Below are positions 10,510 to 34,992 of a stretch of 34,992 nt of DNA, one piece after another. This DNA is from Fibrobacter sp. (GTDB lineage Bacteria > Krumholzibacteriota > Krumholzibacteriia > LZORAL124-64-63), in the NCBI GenBank assembly GCA_020718045.1, contig DYDD01000004.1, positions 765 through 35,756 on the forward strand, given 5' to 3'. Position 1 is the stretch's first letter. Each line of letters opens with the position of its first letter. Below the pieces are notes generated by a model. The model searched no databases. It saw nothing but the letters and a program-made list of their open reading frames with translations, and was not told the origin of the DNA. The translations under genes were made by a program, and so were the position numbers.

Positions 10510-10535
10510 CGTCGGACCGCGGCGGACGGGGAGAT

Positions 10536-10743: not shown

Positions 10744-12795
10744 ATGTCGGCGCGGGTCAGGGTGCTGCTGGTCGACGACGACGCGGTCTACCGCGCCGCG
10801 CTCGGCGCCCGTCTGCGGGCCGCCGCCTGCGAGGTGGTCGAGACCGGCGACGGGCAGGAAGCCGTCCGGCTGGTCCGTTCGGACCGCGGTCTCGACATCG
10901 TCGTGGTCGAACTCGCGCCCCCCGGGCTGGACGGCAGCGAGATCATCGGCGAGATCAAGAAGTTCCGCCCGGAGATCCCCGTGCTCGTGCTGACGGGCTC
11001 GGGGTCCGTCGCCTCGGCCATGGACATGGGCAGCCGCGGCGCCTACCGCTACCTCGAGAAATCCGCCGATTTCGAGCTTATCGTCGCGGCCCTCGGCGAG
11101 GCCCGCCACGAGAAGCTGCGCACCATGGCGCGCCACGACATGGCCCTGCCCACCCTGGCCTCGGCGCGGGCCCGCCTGTGGGGGGGGCACAACCACCGGC
11201 CCGCCGTCGTCATCCTGGGGATGCTCCTGCTCGGGGCCGCCTACGCGCTGCCGCCGCCGCCCGGCCTGCTCTCCCTGCTCGGCGCCCCCAAGTCCGCCGC
11301 GACCGCCGTCGCCGCCGACCAGATCGCCGGCTACGCCGAATACCGGGAGATGGACGCCGGGGAGACGATTGCGTCGCACTACGCCCGCTGGCACGGGACG
11401 GCCGCGGATCGGGACGGGCGCGACGGCGGGAGCGCGGCGGCCACCGCCGGCGTCGCCCGCAAGGCCATGCTGATGGTGGCGCTGTTGATGGCGGGAGCGA
11501 TGTTCTGGGCCACCGCCGCGGTGCCGATCGGGATCACGGCGATCTTCGTGGCGGCCGCGCTGTACGCGTTCGGCATCATGCGGCCCGACCAGGTCGCCCA
11601 GGCCTTCGCCAAGGACTCGGTGGTCTTCATCTTCGGCGTGCTGGCCATGTCGCGGGTCATCACGCGCACGGGGCTGGACCGCCGCCTCGGGATGGTGCTG
11701 CTGGCGCCGGTGCGCAGCCTGCCGCTGTTCCTGTTCCTCTTCCTGCCGGTGTTCGCCCTGTCCTGCTCGTTCATCTCGGAGTCGGTGCTGGTGGCGGTGA
11801 TGATGCCGCTGCTGTTGGTCGTCCACGCCGCCTCGGTGCGCGAGCGCGGGGTCGGGCAGGACCGGCAGTTGCTGACGCTGCTGGCGCTGGGGCTGTGCTT
11901 CGCCTCGAACCTGGGCGGGCCGGGCTCGCCGGCGGCGGGTGCCCGCAACGCCGTGATGATCGGCATCCTCGAGGAGTACGGCCGGGCGCCGTCCTTCGTC
12001 GAGTGGCTGCGCTACGGCCTGCCCTTCGTCCCGGTCGCGACCCTGCTGCTGGGCGCGTACCTCGCGGTCGCCTTCCGCAAGACCGTGTTCGGGGTCCGGC
12101 TGGACGCCGCCGCCGCCATCCGGCGCACGGCCGTCACCATGGGTCCCGCCAACCGCGACGAGCGCCTGACCGGCATCGTGTTCGGCGGGGTGATCCTGCT
12201 GTGGATCGCGGCGGGATCGCGCATGGGCATGGGCGGCCCGATCCTGCTCGGCCTGGTGGCCCTGAACCTGCTACAGGTCCTGAAATGGCGCGACGTGATC
12301 AGGATCCCTTGGGAGGTCGTCTTCCTCTACGCCGGCGCCAGCGCCATCGGCAAGGGGCTCGCCGCCACCGGCGGCGCCCTCTACCTGGCCGAGAGCGCGG
12401 TGCGGCTCCTGCCCGAATCCTGGCTGCAGGGATCGGGCCTGCCCCTGGTCGCGGCGCTGCTGGCGGGCGTGACCACGAACTTCATGAGCGACGGCGCCAC
12501 CGTGGCTGCCGTCGGCCCGATCACGGTGCCCATGGCCCGCGCGGCGGCGCAGCACCCCTGGGCGGTGGGCCTGGCCACCGCGTTCGCGTCCTCGTTCGCC
12601 CACATGCTGATCATCGGCACGCCGAGCAACGCCATGGTCTACGCGATGTGCCGGGACCCGATGACGGGCGGGCACCCCGTCTCGCAGCGCGATTTCCTGC
12701 GTCATGGCGCGGCCGTCTTCGTGCTGAGCTTCGTCGTGCTGTGGTTCTGGACGATGACGACGTACTGGCAATGGCTCGGTTTCCCCGCGTCATGA
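10744..12795 (+). CDS. Receiver domain fused to an SLC13/DASS-like (divalent anion:Na+ symporter-type) transporter
   Basis: ATG 10744; receiver MSARVRVLLVDDDAVYRAALGARLRAAACEVVETGDGQEAVRL..DIVVVELAPPGLDGSEII..PVLVLTGSGS..YRYLEKSADF; then transporter with SVVFIFGVLAMSRVITRTGLDRRLG, CFASNLGGPGSPAAGARNAVMIGIL, GLAATGGALYLAES, AGVTTNFMSDGATVAAVGPI and LIIGTPSNAMVYAM motifs. Confidence 0.85.
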   Translation: MSARVRVLLVDDDAVYRAALGARLRAAACEVVETGDGQEAVRLVRSDRGLDIVVVELAPPGLDGSEIIGEIKKFRPEIPVLVLTGSGSVASAMDMGSRGAYRYLEKSADFELIVAALGEARHEKLRTMARHDMALPTLASARARLWGGHNHRPAVVILGMLLLGAAYALPPPPGLLSLLGAPKSAATAVAADQIAGYAEYREMDAGETIASHYARWHGTAADRDGRDGGSAAATAGVARKAMLMVALLMAGAMFWATAAVPIGITAIFVAAALYAFGIMRPDQVAQAFAKDSVVFIFGVLAMSRVITRTGLDRRLGMVLLAPVRSLPLFLFLFLPVFALSCSFISESVLVAVMMPLLLVVHAASVRERGVGQDRQLLTLLALGLCFASNLGGPGSPAAGARNAVMIGILEEYGRAPSFVEWLRYGLPFVPVATLLLGAYLAVAFRKTVFGVRLDAAAAIRRTAVTMGPANRDERLTGIVFGGVILLWIAAGSRMGMGGPILLGLVALNLLQVLKWRDVIRIPWEVVFLYAGASAIGKGLAATGGALYLAESAVRLLPESWLQGSGLPLVAALLAGVTTNFMSDGATVAAVGPITVPMARAAAQHPWAVGLATAFASSFAHMLIIGTPSNAMVYAMCRDPMTGGHPVSQRDFLRHGAAVFVLSFVVLWFWTMTTYWQWLGFPAS

Positions 12796-12820: not shown

Positions 12821-13681
12821 ATGACCCCCAAGTCGAAGGACAAGGCGCCCGACGGCGACCGCACCGCCCGGCACGTCGAGCCCGAGACGAGCCGCCATCG
12901 CAGCAAGCTGCCCGGCGACCTGTACGACAAGGAGATGGCCCGGCTCGAGGTCGAGCTGGTCAAGCTCCAGGCCTGGATCCGGCACGCCGGCCTGAAGGTC
13001 GTGGTGATCTTCGAGGGGCGCGACGCGGCCGGCAAGGGCGGCGTCATCAAGCGGATCACCGAACCGCTGAACCCCCGCATCGCGCGCGTCGTCGCCCTGG
13101 GCGTGCCGACCGAACGCGAGAAGACCCAGTGGTACTTCCAGCGCTACATCGCCCACCTGCCGGGGGCCGGCGAGATGGTGCTGTTCGACCGCAGCTGGTA
13201 CAACCGCGCCGGCGTCGAACGGGTCATGGGCTTCTGCAGCGACGAGGAGCACCAGGAGTTCCTGCGCTGCTGCCCCGAGTTCGAGCGCATGCTGGTGCGT
13301 TCCGGGATCCTGCTGGTCAAGTACTGGTTCTCCGTCAGCGACGACGAGCAGGAGCGGCGCTTCAGGGACCGCCTCTCCGATCCCACCAAGCGCTGGAAGC
13401 TCAGTCCCATGGATGTGGAGTCGCGGTCCCGGTGGGTGGAGTACTCGCGCGCCAAGGACGAGATGTTCGCCCACACCGACATCAAGCAGGCGCCGTGGTA
13501 CGTGGTCGACGGGGACGACAAGAAGCGCGCGCGGCTGAACTGCATCAGCCATCTGCTGGGCTTGATCCCCTACGAGGACCTGACGCCTGAGCCGGTCACG
13601 CTGCCGCCGCGGCTGACGGGGGCGGAGTACGTGAGGCCGCCGCTGAGCGACCAGACGTTCGTGCCGGAGCTGTATCCGTAG
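12821..13681 (+). CDS. ppk2: Polyphosphate kinase 2 family protein
   Basis: Walker A VIFEGRDAAGKGGVIKRITEPLNPR, Walker B VLFDRSWYNRAGVERVMGFC, lid-region RFRDRLSDPTKRWKLSPMDVESRSRWVEYSRAKDEMF. Confidence 0.95.
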   Translation: MTPKSKDKAPDGDRTARHVEPETSRHRSKLPGDLYDKEMARLEVELVKLQAWIRHAGLKVVVIFEGRDAAGKGGVIKRITEPLNPRIARVVALGVPTEREKTQWYFQRYIAHLPGAGEMVLFDRSWYNRAGVERVMGFCSDEEHQEFLRCCPEFERMLVRSGILLVKYWFSVSDDEQERRFRDRLSDPTKRWKLSPMDVESRSRWVEYSRAKDEMFAHTDIKQAPWYVVDGDDKKRARLNCISHLLGLIPYEDLTPEPVTLPPRLTGAEYVRPPLSDQTFVPELYP

Positions 13682-22256: not shown

Positions 22257-23594
22257 TCAGGGACGGTCGTGCGGCTCCGACGGCTCGCGCGGCTCCTGGG
22301 ATGTCTGAGACGTCTGGGGCGCGAAGAGCCGGTGCAGCGTCGCCAGGTGCTGCTGGCGCTCCTGCTCGCTCTCGGCGCTCTTGAGCGACTCCATCGAGCG
22401 ACCCAGGACCTTCTTGATGAACTGCTGCAGGCTGGCGTCGACCGCCGCGGCCACCTCGTCGGACTGCTTGCGGCGCACGTAGCCGACCTGCTTCTCCTTG
22501 AGGTCCTCGAGGTAGGCGCGGAACTCGGCCACGCTGGGGCGCAGGTCCATCTCGCGGACCCAGGCGCGGAACTCCGCCAGCTCCTCCTCGACGATGCGCT
22601 CGGCCCCGGGCAGCTGCTTGCGGCGCGCGGCGAGGTTGGACTGGACGATCTCGTCGAGGTCGTCCAGACCGAAGACATAGGTCTCGTCCACCCGCGCGAC
22701 GTCGGGATGGACATCGCGCGGGACGGCGATGTCCAGGACGTACAGCGGCCGTCCGCGGCGGCGGCGCATGGCGGCGCGCACCATCTCCGGCAGGATCACG
22801 GGCTCGAGGCTGCCGGTGGTCGAGAGCACGACGTCCACGTCGGCCAGCGCGGCGGGCAGGTCCTCCCAGGGACGCGCGCGCACGAGTTCGCCCTTGCCGC
22901 CGTTGAGGTCGTCCGCCAGGGTCCGCGCGCGCTCGGGGCTGCGGTTCACCACGATCAGGCCGCCGATGCCCTGCTGCAGGAAGTGGCGGGCCGCCAGGGC
23001 GCCGGTCTCGCCGGCGCCGACCAGCAGGGCGCGGTGCCGCGGCAGGTCGGCGAAGAACTTGCGGGCCAGTTCGACGGCGGCGAAGGCGACGCTGACCGCC
23101 CCCTCGCCGATCTTCGTCTCGGTGCGGACGCGCTTGCCGGCGCGGAACGCGCCCTGGAAGGCGCGCATGAGCACCGGGCCGAGCTCGTGGTGCTCCTTGG
23201 CCAGCCGGTAGGCGTCCTTGAGCTGGCCGGAGATCTGGGGCTCGCCCAGCATCATGCTCTCCAGGCCGGCCGACACCCGGTAGAGGCGGCGCACGGCCTC
23301 CCCGTCGGTCAGGCGCACGGCGTGCTCGCCGGTGAACAGCGAGGGGTCGAGCCCGGCGCCGGCCAGGCTGCGGGTCATGCTGTCGAAGGGCGCGAAACCG
23401 GGCAGGGCCTCGACGTAGATCTCGGTGCGGTTGCAGGTGCTGACCGGCACGGCCGAGACGAACCCCGGCTCCCGCGACAGGGCCGCCAGCAGTCCGCCCA
23501 CGCGCTCGGGGTCGATGTGCGCGCGCTCGCGCACCTCGGTCGGCGCGAGCCGGTGGTCGATCCCCCACAGGTGCAGGCCGGCGCGCCCCGCCAT
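22257..23594 (-). CDS. hemA: Glutamyl-tRNA reductase
   Basis: LHLWGIDHRLAPTEVRERAHI, VSTCNRTEIYVE (catalytic Cys), LESMMLGEPQISGQLKDAY, LVGAGETGALAARHF. Confidence 0.95.
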   Translation of the reverse strand: MAGRAGLHLWGIDHRLAPTEVRERAHIDPERVGGLLAALSREPGFVSAVPVSTCNRTEIYVEALPGFAPFDSMTRSLAGAGLDPSLFTGEHAVRLTDGEAVRRLYRVSAGLESMMLGEPQISGQLKDAYRLAKEHHELGPVLMRAFQGAFRAGKRVRTETKIGEGAVSVAFAAVELARKFFADLPRHRALLVGAGETGALAARHFLQQGIGGLIVVNRSPERARTLADDLNGGKGELVRARPWEDLPAALADVDVVLSTTGSLEPVILPEMVRAAMRRRRGRPLYVLDIAVPRDVHPDVARVDETYVFGLDDLDEIVQSNLAARRKQLPGAERIVEEELAEFRAWVREMDLRPSVAEFRAYLEDLKEKQVGYVRRKQSDEVAAAVDASLQQFIKKVLGRSMESLKSAESEQERQQHLATLHRLFAPQTSQTSQEPREPSEPHDRP

Positions 23595-24457
23595 CACACG
23601 CCCCCGCGCAGGCTGAAGTTGTGGAAGCTGGGGATGAAGTGGTGGATGGCGCCCATCGCCAGGACCACCGCGAGGTAGGTCAGGATCGCCAGCGTGTTCA
23701 TGCGGCGGCCGCGCCAGCCCCACCAGCGGTGGCCGGCCAGGCCCGCCAGGTAGACCAGGAAGATCAGCCAGGAGGTCAGGATCTTCGGGTCGAAGGGGGT
23801 CAGGCTGCGCGCCGTCTCGGGGTCGAGCTTGTCGGCCAGGTCGTAGAGCCACAGGTGACCCAGCGCGAGGGCCCCGAACAGCAGGGGCACGCCCAGCTTG
23901 GCCGCGCCCACGCTCATGCGCTCCAGGACCTCCAGCGGCGGCAGCCGGCGGAAGAGCAGCCCGAACGTCTTGCGGGCGAGCTGGCGCGCCAGCACCAGGT
24001 AGAGGGCCGCGTAGAGGAAGCTGAGGCTCAGCGCGGTGTACGCCAGCAGCACCAGCACGGCGTGGCCGGCGTAGCCGGGGTCCTCCAGCAGTGGGTTGGC
24101 CGCCGGTTCGGCGATGGAGAACGCGCTGGCGATGAACTGCAGCAGGAACGCCACGCCCGTGACCAGGAACCCCGTCTCGCGCACGCGCAGACGGCGTTCG
24201 ACCACGGCGTAGATCAGCAGCAGGGACAGCGCCAGCAGCGACAGGAACTCCAGGGGCGAGGCCATCGGCAGGTGGTGGTGTACCCGCGCGTGGATGACGG
24301 ACGCCGCAAGGTGGGCCACCACGGTCGTCGCGAGCAGCCGCCGCGCCCAGCGGTGGGCGAACTTGCGGTTCTCGTAGAAGACCCACAGGTAGGCCACGAA
24401 GAGCAGCAGGTACAGCAGCGGTAGCAGGACCTCGCCCACCGTCAACGCGAGCCTCAT
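23594..24457 (-). CDS. CcsA/HemX-like cytochrome c assembly membrane protein
   Basis: Multi-TM protein; DPKILTSWLIFLVYLAGLAGHRWWGWRGRRMNTLAILTYLAVVLAMGAIHHFIPSFHNF; located directly upstream of hemA as HemX usually is; ATGA overlap with hemG. Confidence 0.85.
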   Translation of the reverse strand: MRLALTVGEVLLPLLYLLLFVAYLWVFYENRKFAHRWARRLLATTVVAHLAASVIHARVHHHLPMASPLEFLSLLALSLLLIYAVVERRLRVRETGFLVTGVAFLLQFIASAFSIAEPAANPLLEDPGYAGHAVLVLLAYTALSLSFLYAALYLVLARQLARKTFGLLFRRLPPLEVLERMSVGAAKLGVPLLFGALALGHLWLYDLADKLDPETARSLTPFDPKILTSWLIFLVYLAGLAGHRWWGWRGRRMNTLAILTYLAVVLAMGAIHHFIPSFHNFSLRGGV

Positions 24458-25935
24458 GCCGCCCCTCCTTCGACGCGGGGACCGGCCGCCGCCAGCCGGT
24501 CGAGCACGGCGGCGGCCATGGTTTCGGATTCCTTGATGCAGGCGTTGACCGACACGCCGCGGTACGAGCTGCCGGACAGGTGCAGGCCCGGCAGGGCGGC
24601 GAGCCGCGTCTCCATTCGGCGCAGGCGGTCGAGGTGGCCGGGTTCGTACTGGGCGATGGCCCGCGGGTGGCGGAACACCCGGGTCATCACGGGGTTGTCG
24701 CGCAGGCCCATCAGCCCGCGCAGCTCGGCGACGGCGCGGTCCCGCAGGGCGTCGTCGCCGTCGTCCAGGACGTGCGGGTCGCCCGGACCGCCGGCCATGC
24801 AGTGCAGCAGGACCCGGCCGTCCGGCGCGCGGCCGGGGAAGATGCTGCTGGTCCACAGGGCGCCCAGCAGGCGGCTGTGTTCGCAGGTGGGGATCAGCGC
24901 GCCGAAGCCGTCGAGGTCGTGCGCCACGTCGCCGCGCGCGTAGCCCAGGGCGATCACGGCCATCGGCACGTAGGGGATGCCGTCCAGCAGGCCGGACAGC
25001 GCGGGGTCGAGCTCGCGCAGGTGGGCGGCGGCCGCGTGGGCCGGCGCGGCGTGGACGACGGCGTCGGCGTCGAAGGATGCGCCCTCGTCGACCCGCACGC
25101 GCCAGACCGCGCCGTCGCGGCTGATCGACGCGACCGCGCGGCCCGTGACGAGGGAGGCGCGCGGATCGTCGCGCAGGGCCCGCGCCAGGGCGGCGGGCAG
25201 CGCCGCCATGCCGTCACGGAAGGAATGCAGGGTGCCGGAGGGGCCGGCATCGGCGGCCCGCTTGCGCTGCTTCGAGATCGCCGCGAGCGCGCGGAACAGG
25301 CTGCCGTGGTCGCGCTCCAGCTCGACCATCCGCGGGAACGCGGCCGCGAGGCTGAGCCGGCGGGCGTCGCCGCCGAAGATGCCCTTGACCATCGGGTCGA
25401 GCATCAGCTCCGCGAAGTCGCTCCCCAGGCGCCGGCGCCCGAACTCCCAGACCGACTCGTCGGTGGCGGGATCGTCGGCGGCGCGGCCCAGGTCCCGCCG
25501 GCGCGGCACCAGGAGTTCGCCCAGCACGCGCAGCTTGGCGCGGGGGGTGAACAGATCGGTCTTGAGGAAGGCGAGCGGCGAGGCGGGGATCTCGCGCAGG
25601 CGGCCGCCGACCACCAGGAAGCGGCGCCGGGCCGCGTCGCTGCTGCGCACCAGCTCGTCGTGCAGGCCCAGGCGGTCGACCAGGCGCAGCGTCGCCGGCT
25701 CGTTGTCCAGGAAGCCGTTGGGGCCCCACTCCAGGCGCCAGCCGTCGTGGACGCTGGTGCGCAGGTTGCCGCCGACCTGCGGCGCGGCCTCCAGGACGTC
25801 GACCCGCAGGTCGAGCCCGCGCGCCGTCGCCCCCTCCAACAGCCGCAGGGCCGTGGCCAGGCCCGACACCCCGCCGCCGACCACGACCGCGCGCCGCGCG
25901 TTCCCTTGCAGCTTCGTCGTGACCTGCTCAGTCAA
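24454..25935 (-). CDS. hemG: FAD-dependent protoporphyrinogen/coproporphyrinogen oxidase (HemG/HemY type)
   Basis: AVVVGGGVSGLATALRL (FAD motif), EAAPQVGGNLRT, WGPNGFLDNEPATLRLVDRLGL, C-terminal YRGVSVNACIKESETMAAAV; located in a hem operon. Confidence 0.93.
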   Translation of the reverse strand: MTEQVTTKLQGNARRAVVVGGGVSGLATALRLLEGATARGLDLRVDVLEAAPQVGGNLRTSVHDGWRLEWGPNGFLDNEPATLRLVDRLGLHDELVRSSDAARRRFLVVGGRLREIPASPLAFLKTDLFTPRAKLRVLGELLVPRRRDLGRAADDPATDESVWEFGRRRLGSDFAELMLDPMVKGIFGGDARRLSLAAAFPRMVELERDHGSLFRALAAISKQRKRAADAGPSGTLHSFRDGMAALPAALARALRDDPRASLVTGRAVASISRDGAVWRVRVDEGASFDADAVVHAAPAHAAAAHLRELDPALSGLLDGIPYVPMAVIALGYARGDVAHDLDGFGALIPTCEHSRLLGALWTSSIFPGRAPDGRVLLHCMAGGPGDPHVLDDGDDALRDRAVAELRGLMGLRDNPVMTRVFRHPRAIAQYEPGHLDRLRRMETRLAALPGLHLSGSSYRGVSVNACIKESETMAAAVLDRLAAAGPRVEGGAA

Positions 25936-27016
25936 GGGTCGCCTCCGCGCGGAAGGGGTCGCCGGCCAGGCGCGCCGCCAGCGAGGCGAGCCAGGTCTCG
26001 TCGAGGTTGAGCGCGGCGCCGCGGTCGAATTCGCGCACGCCCAGCTCCTCGGCTTCGCGACGCAACTCGCGGTCGAGTTCGTGCAGCGTCTCGATGTGCT
26101 CGCAGGTGAAGCTGACCGGCTGCACCAGCAGCCGGCGGCAACCGGCTCCGGCCAGGCGCCGCGTCTCGGCCGTGATCTCGGGGCCGAGCCACTTGATGGG
26201 GCCGACCTTGCTCTGGAAGGCCAGCAAGGGCGCGGGCCCGCCCGGCAGTCGGGCCAGCCAGGCGGCGTGGCCGTCCGCGGCGAGGGCCGTGCGCACGCGC
26301 TCGTGGACGGCGCTGACCGTGGCGCGGGTCTGGCTGAGGTATGGGTCCCCGCGCTTGATGAAGCTCTCGGGCAGGGAGTGCGCCACGTAGATCAGGGCGC
26401 ACTGCTGCGGGTCGGCGCCCTCGTCGGCCCAGCGTCGCAGGCCGCGGCCCGCGTTGGCGGCCAGCGTCGCGACGAAGCCGTCCAGCAGATGCCAGGCCTC
26501 GATCACGTGGACCGCGGTGCCGGGGGCGAGGCGGTCCAGCGACCGCTGCACGAAGGACAGCGTGCTGCCGTTGGTGGCGTCGGAGTACTGGGGGTACATC
26601 GGCAGGACCAGGAACTGCTCGGCGCCGCGCTCGCGCAGCCCGCGCACGGCCTCGTCGGGAAAGGGCCGCCAGTAGCGCATGGCCGGCAGCGCGATCGTCG
26701 GCCTGCCGGCTTCGCCCAGCAGCGCGGCCAGCCGGTCCCCCTGGGCGCGGGTGGTCGGGACCTGCGGCGAGCCGCCGCCGAGCCCCATCTCGAGGTACCG
26801 CCGGCGCACGGCTGGCGCGCGCCGCCAGGCGATCAGGCGGCCCAGGAGCGGGGAGAGCAGGCGCGGGATGGGGATGATCTGCGGGTCCTGGAACAGGTTG
26901 CGCAGGAAGGGCTGCACCGCGTCGGGCCCGTCGGGCCCGCCCATGCCGCACAGGATCAGGCCCGTGGTCCGGGCCGGGTCGAGGTGGTCCTGCCGGAAGC
27001 GACGCGGTGCGGTCAT
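25928..27016 (-). CDS. hemH: Ferrochelatase
   Basis: MRYWRPFPDEAV, YPQYSDATNGSTL, YVAHSLPESFIKRGDPY, AFQSKVGPIKWLGPE, VQPVSFTCEHIETLHELDRE. Confidence 0.95.
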   Translation of the reverse strand: MTAPRRFRQDHLDPARTTGLILCGMGGPDGPDAVQPFLRNLFQDPQIIPIPRLLSPLLGRLIAWRRAPAVRRRYLEMGLGGGSPQVPTTRAQGDRLAALLGEAGRPTIALPAMRYWRPFPDEAVRGLRERGAEQFLVLPMYPQYSDATNGSTLSFVQRSLDRLAPGTAVHVIEAWHLLDGFVATLAANAGRGLRRWADEGADPQQCALIYVAHSLPESFIKRGDPYLSQTRATVSAVHERVRTALAADGHAAWLARLPGGPAPLLAFQSKVGPIKWLGPEITAETRRLAGAGCRRLLVQPVSFTCEHIETLHELDRELRREAEELGVREFDRGAALNLDETWLASLAARLAGDPFRAEATLD

Positions 27017-27023
27017 CCTCGCC

Positions 27024-28400
27024 TCAGATGGTCTTGGAGAACAGGGGTTTCCCGCTCGTGCGGTCCAGGTAGGCGTCGAACTCCATGCACAGGTTGCGCA
27101 CGAAGAAGCGTCCCAGGTCGGTCACGCGCACGCGGTCGGGCAGGAACTCCACGAAGCCCTCGTCCTGGTAGGGGAGCAGGCGGGCCAGCCCGTCGGCCAG
27201 CAGCTCGTCCGCCGGCGCGCCGAAACCGGGCACGGTCAGCGCGTAGGGCAGCTCCAGGTTGCACATCAGGTTCAAGATCGCCAGGCGCCGCAGGCGGTCG
27301 TCGTCGCTGAGGCGGTGCCCCTTGACGACCGGCAGGTGGCCGGCGTCGACCGCGTTCTGGTAGCCGTCGAGCTCGGCGTCGTTCTGGACGAAGCGGTCGC
27401 ACACGTCGCCGATGCCGCTCATGCCGAAGGCCAGCATGTGGGGCGCCGGGCGCGTCGTGTAGCCCATGAAGTTGCGGTGCAGGCGCCGCTCCCGCAGCGC
27501 GACGGCGAGCTCGTCGTCGCGCCGGGCGAAGTGGTCGATGCCGATCCAGTCGTAGCCGGCCTCGGCGAACAGGTCGATCGCCAGGCGGAACAGCTCGAAC
27601 TTCTCGAAGCCCGACGGCATGTTGTCGGTGTTGATGAGCTTCTGCCGCGGGCGCACCCAGGGCACGTGGGCGTAGCTGAAGCAGGCCACGCGGTCGGGTC
27701 CCTGTTCGATGATGTCGCTCAGGGTGCGAGCGAAGGAGTCGCGCGTCTGCTCCGGCAGGCCGTAGACGAGGTCGAGGTTGACGCCCTCGTAGCCGGCCTC
27801 GCGGCAGGCGTGGTACAGCTCCAGCGTGCGGTCGCGCTTCTGCAGGCGGCCGATGGCCTTCTGCACCGCGGGCTCGAAGTCCTGCACGCCCAGGCTGATG
27901 CGGTTGAAGCCCTGCGCCCGCAGGAAGCGCGCCTGCTCGGGCGTGCCGATGCGCGGGTCGACCTCGATCGAGACCTCGCCCCGCGGGTCGACGGCGAAGG
28001 CGGCGCGCAGCAGCCCCAGCGCGCGCTCGACCTGCGGGTCCTTGAGGAAGTTGGGCGTGCCGCCGCCCCAGTGCAGTTGCACGACGCGCCGGCCCGGACC
28101 CAGCACGTCCACCACCGCGGCCAGCTCGCGCTCGACGCGGTCGAGGTAGGCGTCGACGGCGCCCTTCTCGGTGGAGACGACGGCATTGCAGCCGCAGTAG
28201 TGGCAGTGCTTGGCGCAGAAGGGCAAGTGCAGGTAGACCGACAGCTCGTCGCCGGGCCGCGCCGCCAGCTCGCGCAGCGCCGCGCGGAAGTCGTCCTCGC
28301 CGAAGCCGCTCGTCCAGGCCGGCACCGTCGGGTAGCTTGTGTACCGGGGGCCCGGCTTGTCGTGCTTCTCGAGAAGGTTGCGCGGCACGTCCAGGGCCAT
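27024..28400 (-). CDS. hemN: Oxygen-independent coproporphyrinogen III oxidase (radical SAM)
   Basis: GPRYTSYPTVPAW, HLPFCAKHCHYCGCN (CxxxCxxC radical-SAM cluster motif), LHWGGGTPNFL, GVNLDLVYGLPEQT, HFARRDDEL. Confidence 0.96.
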   Translation of the reverse strand: MALDVPRNLLEKHDKPGPRYTSYPTVPAWTSGFGEDDFRAALRELAARPGDELSVYLHLPFCAKHCHYCGCNAVVSTEKGAVDAYLDRVERELAAVVDVLGPGRRVVQLHWGGGTPNFLKDPQVERALGLLRAAFAVDPRGEVSIEVDPRIGTPEQARFLRAQGFNRISLGVQDFEPAVQKAIGRLQKRDRTLELYHACREAGYEGVNLDLVYGLPEQTRDSFARTLSDIIEQGPDRVACFSYAHVPWVRPRQKLINTDNMPSGFEKFELFRLAIDLFAEAGYDWIGIDHFARRDDELAVALRERRLHRNFMGYTTRPAPHMLAFGMSGIGDVCDRFVQNDAELDGYQNAVDAGHLPVVKGHRLSDDDRLRRLAILNLMCNLELPYALTVPGFGAPADELLADGLARLLPYQDEGFVEFLPDRVRVTDLGRFFVRNLCMEFDAYLDRTSGKPLFSKTI

Positions 28401-28401
28401 C

Positions 28402-29439
28402 TCAGTCCCCCTCGCGGTACGCCTGCACGGTCGCGACCAGGGTCTCGACCGCGTCCAGGGGCGCCTCCGGCAGGATGCCGTGCCCGAGGTTGAAGACGTG
28501 GCCGGCGGCGTCGCGGCCGGCGCGGCAGATCTCCAGCGCGCGGCGGCGGATCTCCTCGTGGCTGCCGAACAGGCACAGCGGGTCCAGGTTGCCCTGCACG
28601 GCCCGGCCGGGATAGGCGCGTGCGGCGACCGCCAGGTCGAGCGTCCAGTCCACGCCGAACGCCTCGGCGTCGAGCGTGCGCACGTGGTCGAGGTAGGGGG
28701 CGCTGCCCTTCAGGAAGTAGACGCGGGGCACGCCCGCGCCCTTCAGGCCGGTCAGGATCCGCCGCAGCCCGGGCATGATGATGCGCTCGTAGTCCTGCGG
28801 GTGCAGGATGCCGCCCCAGGTGTCGAAGATCTGGACCGCATCGACGCCCGCCTCGACCTGCATCAGCAGGTAGTCGGTGATCTGGTCGGCGAGCTTGTCC
28901 AGCAGGCGCGACAGCAGCGCCGGGTCGGAGTAGAGCATCGCCTTGAGGTGCCGGTAGTCCTTGGAACCGCCGCCTTCGATCATGTAGGCCGCCAGCGTGA
29001 ACGGCGCGCCGGCGAACCCGATCAGGGGCGTGCGGTCCCCGAGCTCGCGCTTGATCATCCGCACGGCCTCGGCCACGTAGCCGGTGTGCTCGCGCGAGTC
29101 GACGACGCGCAGGGCGTCCACGTCGGCCGCCGCGCGCACGGTGTGGTGCATGCGCGGGCCGTGGTCGTCGAAGGAGAAGGGGGCGCCCATGGGCTCCAGC
29201 GGCACCAGGATGTCGCTGAACAGGATGGCCGCGTCGAAGCCGAAGCGGCGGATCGGCTGCAGGGTGACCTCGCAGGCCAGCTCCGGCGTCTTGCAGAGGC
29301 CGATGAACGAGGTCTTCTCGCGCACGGCGCGGTACTCGGGGAGGTAGCGGCCCGCCTGGCGCATGATCCAGATCGGCGTGCGCTCGTGCGCCTCGCGACG
29401 CAGGGCGGACAGGTAGGGGAGATGCTGCAGCGTGTCCAT
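28402..29439 (-). CDS. hemE: Uroporphyrinogen decarboxylase
   Basis: RTPIWIMRQAGRYLPEYRAVR, DAAILFSDILVPLEPMG, IGFAGAPFTLAAYMIEGGGSKDY, FNLGHGILPEAPLDAVETLV. Confidence 0.97.
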   Translation of the reverse strand: MDTLQHLPYLSALRREAHERTPIWIMRQAGRYLPEYRAVREKTSFIGLCKTPELACEVTLQPIRRFGFDAAILFSDILVPLEPMGAPFSFDDHGPRMHHTVRAAADVDALRVVDSREHTGYVAEAVRMIKRELGDRTPLIGFAGAPFTLAAYMIEGGGSKDYRHLKAMLYSDPALLSRLLDKLADQITDYLLMQVEAGVDAVQIFDTWGGILHPQDYERIIMPGLRRILTGLKGAGVPRVYFLKGSAPYLDHVRTLDAEAFGVDWTLDLAVAARAYPGRAVQGNLDPLCLFGSHEEIRRRALEICRAGRDAAGHVFNLGHGILPEAPLDAVETLVATVQAYREGD

Positions 29440-29691: not shown

Positions 29692-30813
29692 TCAGGGCGC
29701 CGTGTAGGGAGCGTCGCCGAAGTCCTTCACGTGGCACTTGTTGCACAGCGACCGCTGGTTGGTCACCAGGGTGTAGCCGTAGTCCTTGTTCGCCACGTCG
29801 TCGGCCGAGGCGCCGGTGTCGGTGGCCAGCGGGTGCGAGCTGATCAGGTGCGTGGACGTGAAGTCCCAGCGGCCGGCGTCCGCGAAGGGCGACGCGTGCG
29901 AACGGTGGCAGGTCAGGCACATGACCTGGTCTCCGGCCACGGGGCCCTGGGTGTAGTTCAGGGGGTCGATGGCTTCGAGGTCGACGTTGACGGCCTCGAA
30001 GGGCACCAGACCGCGGTACGAGGTGGCGGGGTCGCCGCCGGTGGTCTGGTCGGTGCTGATGTAGGCGTTGTAGGTCGCCACGACCAGGCTGCTCATGTCC
30101 TCGCCCGTCGGGTGCACGAAGTCGGTGGTGTTGCCGGCATGCAGGTCGGTGTGGCAGTTGGCGCACCACTCGCTCATGCCCGACTTGTACACGGTGTGCG
30201 AGAGGTCGGTCTCGGGCACGCCCGAGGGGCTGTTGCCCAGGGTGCGGCGGCTGTTGCCCAGGGCGATCGGGGCGGGGCTGTCGAAGTTGTAGCGGGCGCC
30301 GCCGTAGATCGGGCCGGCGCTCTCGTCGCCGTAGAGCAGACGGTAGTTCTGGTTGCCGTGCGGGTCGTGGCAGCTCGTGCAGGTCAGGTACTGGCTGTCG
30401 AAGTCGCCGCCGGGGGCCGCGGCCAGGACGGGATCCCGGACGATGCCGTAGGCCGGCGAGATGACGTTGTGGCCGTGGGTGTAGCCCTGACGGGAGCCGG
30501 CCCGGGGCGTGGTCCACGAGAAGGTCTTGGTGATCCAGTAGAAGTCGCCGCCGGCGCCCCAGCCGAAGCCGCCGGCGAGCTGGCCGTACGCGGCGTGGCA
30601 GCGCAGGCAGGTGTCGCTGGCGTTGCCGTTGTTCAGCAGGTAGGCGTTGCCCGTGGGGTGATTGACGTCCACGAGGGCGCCGTTCTGGCTGTTGTGCATG
30701 GTGTGGCAGCCGGCGCAGTAGGCCACGCCGCCGTCGTGGAACGCCAAAGCGGCGCCGCTGCTCAGGGCGAGAGCCAGGACGATGGTTGCGGAGATCAACA
30801 GTTTGTGTTTCAC
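29692..30813 (-). CDS. Secreted hexaheme c-type cytochrome
   Basis: GTG start with GGAGGCG RBS; signal peptide; six CxxCH motifs (CAGCH, CLRCH, CTSCH, CANCH, CLTCH, CNKCH). Confidence 0.92.
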   Translation of the reverse strand: MKHKLLISATIVLALALSSGAALAFHDGGVAYCAGCHTMHNSQNGALVDVNHPTGNAYLLNNGNASDTCLRCHAAYGQLAGGFGWGAGGDFYWITKTFSWTTPRAGSRQGYTHGHNVISPAYGIVRDPVLAAAPGGDFDSQYLTCTSCHDPHGNQNYRLLYGDESAGPIYGGARYNFDSPAPIALGNSRRTLGNSPSGVPETDLSHTVYKSGMSEWCANCHTDLHAGNTTDFVHPTGEDMSSLVVATYNAYISTDQTTGGDPATSYRGLVPFEAVNVDLEAIDPLNYTQGPVAGDQVMCLTCHRSHASPFADAGRWDFTSTHLISSHPLATDTGASADDVANKDYGYTLVTNQRSLCNKCHVKDFGDAPYTAP

Positions 30814-32203: not shown

Positions 32204-34992
32204 TCAGCGCTTCTCGCGGATCTTCTCGGTGTGACATCCGATGCACAGCTTCCCGCCGGCATCCTCCCGGAGGACCTTTTCGAACTCAGAGCCGTGAGGG
32301 TCGTGGCAACTGGAGCAGACGATCTCGCCGCCATGGACCGGATCCGTCGTGCCGGCGCCCAGAGGGTGGTCGGTGTGCTCCTGCCAGGTGTGGCAGCGCA
32401 GACAGGGGTCGGGACCGGCGGGTGCCGACCCGGGAGCGCCTACGGCGGCATGGGGGTTGTGGCACATCGTGCACTGACGGCCCTCGGGATCGGGGTGCCG
32501 GTGGCTCGACGACTTCATGCGCTCGGCCTGCTCGGCGTGGCAGCGTCCGCAGACGGCGACCTGGCTGCGGGGCAGCAGGTTGGACACCGGCGAGGCGTGG
32601 GGAGTGTGGCACTCCAGGCAGGCCCGCTCGCCCGCAAGCGGGGCGTGGAGGGTCGCGCCCTTGAGTTCCTCGGCCAGACCGGGATGGCAGGCCAGGCACA
32701 GGCGCTTTTCGGCTCCCGTCTGCACCTTGCCGCCGGCGTCGTGGCAAGCCTTGCAGTCGCGCTTGGCGTACGGCTGGTGGACGTGCCCGTGCGTCAAACC
32801 GGCGTGCGTGCTGGCGTGCGGATCGTGGCAGGCCATGCAGTCGGCCGTCCCGAGATCGAAGTTCAAGTGCGGTTTGGCCAGCGCGGCGCCCGCGAGGTCG
32901 TGGCAGGTCGCGCAGAGGGCGGGCACCGCCTTGGACAGGAGATCCGCTTGGTCCGTGCCGTGGGCGTCGTGGCAGGTGGCGCACTTCCCGTCGGCGAACG
33001 GTTGGTGCCGCCTCGGCAGCGACTGGGCCGTTTGCAGGTCCTGGTGACAGGTCCAACAGAGAGCCGTGCGCGCCGTGCGCAGCAGGGCGGGCTGGTCCGA
33101 GCCGTGGGGATCGTGGCATGCGGCGCAGTCGCCGTCGCGGGCGGGCCGGTGGGCCAGATCCGCCCGGGGGAACAGCGTGCCGCCGCCGTGGCAGACCGCG
33201 CAGGCGGCGCCGACGCCGCCGGCTTTCAACAAGTGCTCGCCGCGGGCGGCGTGGGCGTCGTGGCAGGCGCTGCACTCGCCGTCGTCGAAGGGGGCGTGGG
33301 GGTGTTTGCGCGTCGCCGTCAGCCCGTCGTGGCAGCCGGCGCACAGCGCCTTCTGGTCGGCGATGGGCGCGGGGCCGTCGTGGCAGGTCGCGCAGTCACG
33401 GTCGTCGAAGGGCGGGTGCGAATTCGGCCGGATCAGCGCCGCCTGCGTCGAGTGGTGCGGCGCGTGGCAGCCGGTGCAGTCCAGCCCGAGGAGGTCGCGC
33501 CCGAGGTGGGCGCCCTTCAGGGCGTCGTCGTTCTCGTCGTGGCAGCGGAAGCAGAGCTCGGTCGCCGGCGCCGCCAGTAGCGAGGGCTGCGCGCCGCCGT
33601 GCGGGAGGTGGCAGGTCGTGCAGTCGTCCTGGATCGGGGGATGGACCGACTTGGCCGCCGCGACGTCGACGATGTCGTTGTGGCAGATCGTGCAGAGCAG
33701 GGGCTCCGGTGCGGAGAGCAGGTCGCCGCGAGCCGCGCGGTGGGCGTCGTGACAGGCCGTGCAGTTGCCGGCGGCGACCGGCGCGTGCGCGTGGCCGCCG
33801 GCGCCCGGGCCGGTGTCGTGGCAGACCAGGCAGATCTCCGCAGCCGGGCGGCGCAGCATGGCGACCTCGTCGCCGCCGTGGGGGCGGTGACAGTCGCCGC
33901 AGAGGCCGTCCGCGACGGGCGGGTGCAGGCTGCCCCCCTCGGGGCGGACGGCCTGGTCGGCGTGGCAGGCCAGGCAAGTCGCCGCGGGCGTCGTCTTCAA
34001 CAGCGATGGCTGATCGGCGCGGTGCGGCACGTGGCAGGCCAGGCAGTCGCCGCGCGCCGCCACATCGTGGGGATGGGAGGTGACGAGCTCGACCTTGACC
34101 TTGAGGTGGCAACCGAGGCAGAGGGTCCCGGCCTTGGCGGTCAGCAGGCCCGGTTCGGTCGAGCTGTGCGGGTCGTGGCAGGCGGAACAGTCCCTCTTGA
34201 CGAAGGGCGTGTGGTCCGAAACGGCGGCGGCCGCACCGTCGTCGATCTCGCTGTGGCAACCGAGGCACAGTTCTCCGGGCTGTGCGGTCAGCAGCGCGGC
34301 CCGTTCGCCGCCGTGGGCGTCGTGGCAGGCGGCGCAGTCGCCCCCGGCGACCGGTGCGTGGACCACGTTGCGGCGGAACGGATCGTCCCCGTGGCACCCG
34401 AAACAGAGTCGGCGCAGTTCGGTCCTGATCATCCCGGAGTGCGCGCTGCCATGGGCGGCGTGGCAGTCCAGGCAGGAGCCGTCGGCGACGGGGGCGTGGG
34501 GCGTCGCGGCGCCGGCGCCGGGCTGGTCGTGGCAGGACAGGCACAGGTCGTTACCCTGGGCGACCAGCGCGGTGCGGCCGTCGGCGTCTTTCACGTGGCA
34601 GGCGGCGCAGTCGCGGTCCCGGACGGGCGCGTGCTGCACGGCCAGCAGGAGCTTCGACGCGTCGGCGCTGTGGGGGTCGTGGCAGGACGTGCAGCCGACG
34701 GTCGCGTCCGCGTCGCCGTGCGCCTGCGCGAGCTTGCGGACATCGCGGTGGCAGGACAGGCAGAGGGCGTCGACGGCGACGTCCAGCAGATGCGGCTCGG
34801 CGCTGCCGTGGGGCCGGTGGCAGGCGGCGCAGCCCTGCTTCTTCAGCGGGGCGTGGACGAACGCGCGCGAGAAAGCGGCGCTGTCGTGGCAGGTCAGGCA
34901 GGACGCGTCGCCCTTCGCGGGCAGCAGGTCCGGCTGTCCGCTGCCGTGGGGGTCGTGGCAGGCGACGCAGCCGCCGTCCCGCACCGGCGGGT
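32204..34992 (-). CDS. Giant multiheme c-type cytochrome with doubled-CXXCH repeats (5' end beyond the window)
   Basis: 926 aa visible with 39 CxxCH motifs by hand count; alternating CxxCHxPH and LCxxCH half-repeats. The frame stays open to the window edge (PPVRDGGCVACH), so the GTG at 34984 is internal. Confidence 0.95.
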   Translation of the reverse strand, partial: PPVRDGGCVACHDPHGSGQPDLLPAKGDASCLTCHDSAAFSRAFVHAPLKKQGCAACHRPHGSAEPHLLDVAVDALCLSCHRDVRKLAQAHGDADATVGCTSCHDPHSADASKLLLAVQHAPVRDRDCAACHVKDADGRTALVAQGNDLCLSCHDQPGAGAATPHAPVADGSCLDCHAAHGSAHSGMIRTELRRLCFGCHGDDPFRRNVVHAPVAGGDCAACHDAHGGERAALLTAQPGELCLGCHSEIDDGAAAAVSDHTPFVKRDCSACHDPHSSTEPGLLTAKAGTLCLGCHLKVKVELVTSHPHDVAARGDCLACHVPHRADQPSLLKTTPAATCLACHADQAVRPEGGSLHPPVADGLCGDCHRPHGGDEVAMLRRPAAEICLVCHDTGPGAGGHAHAPVAAGNCTACHDAHRAARGDLLSAPEPLLCTICHNDIVDVAAAKSVHPPIQDDCTTCHLPHGGAQPSLLAAPATELCFRCHDENDDALKGAHLGRDLLGLDCTGCHAPHHSTQAALIRPNSHPPFDDRDCATCHDGPAPIADQKALCAGCHDGLTATRKHPHAPFDDGECSACHDAHAARGEHLLKAGGVGAACAVCHGGGTLFPRADLAHRPARDGDCAACHDPHGSDQPALLRTARTALCWTCHQDLQTAQSLPRRHQPFADGKCATCHDAHGTDQADLLSKAVPALCATCHDLAGAALAKPHLNFDLGTADCMACHDPHASTHAGLTHGHVHQPYAKRDCKACHDAGGKVQTGAEKRLCLACHPGLAEELKGATLHAPLAGERACLECHTPHASPVSNLLPRSQVAVCGRCHAEQAERMKSSSHRHPDPEGRQCTMCHNPHAAVGAPGSAPAGPDPCLRCHTWQEHTDHPLGAGTTDPVHGGEIVCSSCHDPHGSEFEKVLREDAGGKLCIGCHTEKIREKR

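Follow-up and report, generated by a model that had tools for sequence, protein, structure and literature searches.

The window, by which we mean the whole 34,992-nucleotide stretch analysed here, carries a gene whose product joins a CheY-like receiver domain to a transporter of the DASS/SLC13 type, with Glu at the position where the phosphorylatable Asp of a receiver is expected. The locus raises the question of what a receiver does on a secondary transporter, and whether the Glu belongs to this architecture or is a later departure from it.

Domain architecture of the fusion protein

The gene (10744–12795, + strand) is a single open frame of 683 amino acids with its stop at 12795. The frame is still open at an alternative upstream ATG at 10534; the start at 10744 is preferred because homologue alignments begin near residues 1–6 counted from it. 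Pfam places a Response_reg domain (PF00072) at residues 7–117 (10762–11094, + strand; 64.4 bits against a gathering cut-off of 30.2) and a Na_sulph_symp domain (PF00939) at residues 234–679 (11443–12780, + strand; 125.3 bits against a cut-off of 27). The preliminary description had read receiver and transporter in one frame, a reading borne out by the open 683-residue frame and by both Pfam domains, each above its cut-off. Between the domains, all on the + strand, lie a linker (residues 123–150, 11110–11193), a membrane helix predicted from hydropathy together with the turn that follows it (residues 151–182, 11194–11289), and a segment of about 50 residues separating the first two predicted helices (residues 183–232, 11290–11439), visible in the alignments. 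AlphaFold prediction for the window protein, supplied with one homologue, gave a pLDDT of 37 and was set aside.

In the active-site map of the receiver, the acidic pair D11/D12, T84, Y103 and K106 are all present, in agreement with the acidic pocket, Thr and Lys described earlier. The phosphoacceptor position is occupied by Glu56 (residue table), encoded by GAA at 10909–10911 (+ strand), as had also been noted, and K106 is followed directly by Ser107, where Pro is usual. Among the other receivers of the same genome, Asp is found in 22 of the 22 examined, leaving the fused receiver as the only one with Glu. Two MAGs of the same genus encode a protein that is 94% identical and has the same GAA codon, so Glu56 cannot be put down to a frameshift or to an error of sequencing. 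A domain that fits the receiver profile with its Asp replaced is, by definition, an aspartate-less receiver or pseudo-receiver (PMC4395418, PMC12632262), and this is what the Glu56 receiver is; the phosphoacceptor Asp that marks a phosphorylatable response regulator is missing from the proteins of the window and the two same-genus genomes. Replacement of Asp by Glu can mimic phosphorylation, yet it is frequently insufficient alone for activation (PMC4395418), and in some pseudo-receivers swapping the residue at this site left activity unaltered (PMC12632262). The phosphomimetic role proposed for Glu56 in the preliminary description is thus possible as mimicry, and its constitutively "on" state is to be read as hypothetical. 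Most likely, to judge from its sequence, the window-genus receiver is no longer switchable by normal aspartyl phosphorylation.

The transporter core aligns with VcINDY. The SNT motifs of DASS proteins contact substrate and sodium, as in VcINDY. At the aligned positions, the window protein reads S345-E346-S347 and S582-D583-G584 and therefore lacks the two SNT motifs by which DASS/SLC13 proteins are recognised; across the fused family, the first position reads SES, SET, SEH or SGS and the second SDG wherever it is covered. The score against the NCBIfam model TIGR00785 (dass), 154.1 bits, falls below the curated cut-off of 198.6, though the match spans the full model. By sequence, the window transporter is a divergent DASS member or belongs to a sister group. 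The earlier assignment to SLC13/DASS is thus supported by the Pfam match, and the "anion transport" attached to it is not established, since the SNT motifs are non-canonical. The inter-helix segment (residues 183–232) is partly conserved throughout the family (GY..Y..M..GETIA..Y) and would be extracytoplasmic if the receiver is cytoplasmic; it is also the fastest-evolving part of the protein within the genus, with a dN/dS of about 1 or more over few sites.

Distribution of the fusion and its Asp-type relatives

The search set comprised 80 genomes of the phylum, all of one class. The receiver–transporter fusion is present in 12 of these, from 8 genera, all in the window's own family; 11 copies are full length, and in G006 the C-terminal end is cut by the contig. 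A thirteenth genome, G016, from a ninth genus, has the transporter half only, at a contig end. The fused proteins align over their entire length. In the trees, the transporter parts of the fusion group together, separate from the sampled receiver-less DASS proteins (99/93), as do its receiver parts, separate from the sampled stand-alone receivers (99/94). This grouping of both parts suggests that the fusion arose once. The window assembly is a draft in 431 contigs, and an assembly chimera or a frameshift could have joined two genes there; this reading, which we regard as having next to no chance of being correct, is refuted by the identical fusion in 12 assemblies from 8 genera and by the single clade of each half. 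The preliminary description had named two outcomes that would speak against it, a frameshift separating the domains and homologues that are always separate genes. No such frameshift was found, the fusion being kept in 12 assemblies, and the homologues are fused. When the phosphoacceptor residue is tabulated for the 12 genomes, as had been suggested, it is Asp in nine and Glu in three.

The nearest named record, from a pattern scan of genome contigs, is a MAG under the name Gemmatimonas sp. SW.020. Apart from the MAG of the same genus, the scan gave a single match, to a receiver alone; its patterns were built on the window protein itself and carry little information on other phyla. A tblastn search of plasmids with an Asp-type relative matched 566 records, all with less than 80% of the query covered, and the 15 matches listed involve the transporter part only. 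Two related arrangements were also observed in the genome set. In G043, from another family of the class, a dCache kinase, three receivers and a DASS protein are neighbouring separate genes (locus L046, 1610–8421), and in G007 a related transporter that lacks the receiver lies beside a CBS-domain gene (locus L045, 5748–7968); its repeat 2 contains a similar motif, MSD.

Outside the window's genus, the fused receivers have Asp (GAC) and Lys-Pro in 9 of the 9 that are readable, and a membrane histidine kinase gene lies just upstream in 8 of these 9. In seven genomes (G004, G006, G009, G014, G018, G020 and G026) it is immediately upstream, with tiny gaps or overlap; in G007, one gene intervenes, which we take to be CBS-like. 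In both kinases tested, from G026 and G007, Pfam identified HisKA and HATPase domains, and dCache matched below its cut-off. A stand-alone receiver lies directly downstream of the fusion at 8 loci (8 genomes), with a PAS-containing hybrid kinase next in line in members of two genera. Since Asp is kept in the other genera and the kinase is encoded in the same apparent operon in most, the family looks like a phosphorylation-controlled transporter. The Glu pointed out in the preliminary description is therefore not a feature of the family, and the "constitutive or partner-sensing" regulator that it had inferred applies at most to the window's genus.

Kinase, neighbourhood and selection in the Glu-type genus

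All three carriers in the window's genus (G000, G001 and G002) combine Glu56 with Ser107, the Lys-Pro having become Lys-Ser. No cognate kinase gene adjoins the fusion in the window, and a full-length orthologue of the kinase was not found in G000–G003; in these genomes and in G005, the kinase query matches the core only (32–41%), and the sensor half was never found. A close match to the partner stand-alone receiver was likewise not found in G000–G003. The assemblies are drafts, 83–96% complete; on several of them taken together, the kinase is probably absent.

Sulfatase, ferredoxin and HtrA-like genes precede the window gene, and a PPK2 polyphosphate kinase gene (12821–13681, + strand; PF03976, 351.5 bits) follows it after 25 bp. 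According to the neighbour lists, the PPK2 gene adjoins the fusion in 3 of the 3 same-genus genomes and was not seen adjoining it in other genera; it is possibly co-transcribed with the fusion, and its position may be a hint of phosphate or may be chance. Genes near the fusion that we take to encode an ATP-sulfurylase-like protein in G005 and a FeoB-like protein in several other genomes were also considered as guides to the substrate. These hints and that of PPK2 are mutually inconsistent, and no substrate is therefore assigned to the transporter. No Rfam family was found in the window and no promoter-like site near the fusion gene. Elsewhere in the window, on the – strand, are a 926-residue multihaem cytochrome c (32204–34984) in which Pfam identifies 17 paired-CXXCH stretches, another CXXCH protein (29692–30813) and, near these multihaem cytochromes, what is presumably a haem biosynthesis cluster (hemA, hemG, hemH, hemN and hemE-like genes; 22257–29439).

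G005, which belongs to another genus, bears on the order of events. By sequence similarity, the same sulfatase–ferredoxin–HtrA series lies upstream of its fusion gene, with two further genes between, and the kinase was not found there, yet Asp is kept. The receiver tree groups G005 with the window's genus (88/85), and the transporter tree groups it with the others (87/72). As its similar neighbourhood is without the kinase and retains Asp, the simplest order is probably loss of the kinase first and replacement of Asp by Glu later. The Glu receiver would then have arisen from the Asp form and be independent of phosphorylation, perhaps locked in a single state.

The receiver of the window's genus might alternatively be an inert relic, or a mere folding or assembly module, in which Glu56 has no signalling meaning. 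Such a reading would fit the loss of Lys-Pro, the loss of the partners (neither kinase nor stand-alone receiver was found) and the long stem branch of the genus, 0.9 in the receiver tree vs 0.55 in the transporter tree. However, dN/dS within the genus is 0.13–0.29 for the receiver and 0.24–0.38 for the transporter core, ratios that rest on few substitutions because the three genomes are closely related, and linker residues 123–150 show no amino-acid change among them. D11, D12, T84, Y103 and K106 are intact, and the substitute at the phosphoacceptor site is a charged Glu rather than a random residue. On these ratios the receiver is under purifying selection, and we give little credence to an inert relic or a mere module.

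Proposed mechanism and relation to known systems

With a kinase upstream, Asp in the relatives and a separate receiver downstream, the family reads as a response regulator with its transporter half as output, and we consider it rather probable that this is so and that the window's genus has kept its receiver as a fixed regulatory domain. The domains, the gene order and the conserved Asp, Thr and Lys are observed; phosphotransfer, gating and the sign of gating are what we infer from them. In most members, the membrane histidine kinase encoded upstream, with its Cache-like sensor, would phosphorylate the Asp of the cytoplasmic N-terminal receiver, and the resulting change of shape would travel through the linker and the first helix to gate the attached DASS transporter. 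In the window's genus, Glu would fix the receiver in one state, selection would retain the receiver, most probably as an unswitched regulatory domain that is either phosphomimetic or structurally required, and transport would be controlled through gene expression or a non-phosphate input. The more specific proposal, that a two-component kinase gates a secondary transporter directly via a fused receiver and that in one genus the kinase was lost and the switch permanently set by Glu as a natural phosphomimetic, is a tentative one, and we incline slightly against it in this full form.

The flow of information could also run the other way. The DASS part might act mainly as a substrate sensor whose occupancy alters how the receiver takes up, holds or passes on phosphate; the kinase and the stand-alone receiver would read this signal, and transport would be secondary. 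The alteration of the SNT motifs to SES/SET and SDG, the second receiver in the operon and the hybrid kinase of some genomes are in keeping with such a transceptor, and SLC5–kinase transceptors such as CbrA are already known (PMC7096432, PMC13022988). In the window's genus, however, the transporter core is still conserved though kinase and partner receiver were not found, which argues against a pure sensor role, and we consider the transceptor unlikely. The receiver could also be a phosphate sink serving the kinase, rather than gating transport.

The nearest functional parallel, by analogy, is with the yeast SPX–DASS transporters Pho87, Pho90 and Pho91, which likewise carry an N-terminal regulatory domain on a DASS transporter. 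Removal of SPX from Pho87 or Pho90 raises Pi uptake up to eightfold, the N-terminal domain restricting phosphate flux (PMC7381174). These proteins differ from the window family in that SPX is not a receiver, they are eukaryotic and without a two-component kinase, and their substrate is known. The nearest two-component parallels, again by analogy, are the SLC5/STAC kinases CbrA and CrbS and the ammonium transporter–kinase of Kuenenia, in which a two-component domain and a transporter fold share one chain (PMC7096432, PMC9100948, PMC5764959). In those fusions, the transporter belongs to families other than DASS, and it is the kinase that is fused and the transporter that serves as input, whereas the fused signalling domain of the window family is a receiver and its transporter probably serves as output. 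VcINDY and other DASS (SLC13) proteins share the Pfam family and the aligned core but are without a receiver; the SNT motifs of VcINDY are canonical, and the segment between helices 1 and 2 is an addition of the window family. Aspartate-less receivers have the same fold with Glu at the phosphoacceptor position, Glu being the commonest replacement (26%), and DNA-binding or enzymatic functions make up most of the outputs catalogued for them (PMC4395418); the window family differs from them in having close Asp relatives that date the change. No description of a receiver fused to a DASS/SLC13 transporter was found in the open-access literature, consistent with the preliminary description, which had not recognised the architecture. 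The family is best classed among response regulators, with a transporter as its output and an aspartate-less version in one genus.

Two-component systems are known mostly for controlling genes or enzymes. A receiver placed covalently on a secondary transporter would, if the proposed mechanism is true, allow a sensor kinase to set transport directly, without transcription. The on/off switching of pseudo-receivers has been named a major unknown (PMC12632262), and the Glu-type genus beside its Asp-type relatives would offer a natural experiment in how a phospho-switch becomes phosphate-independent.
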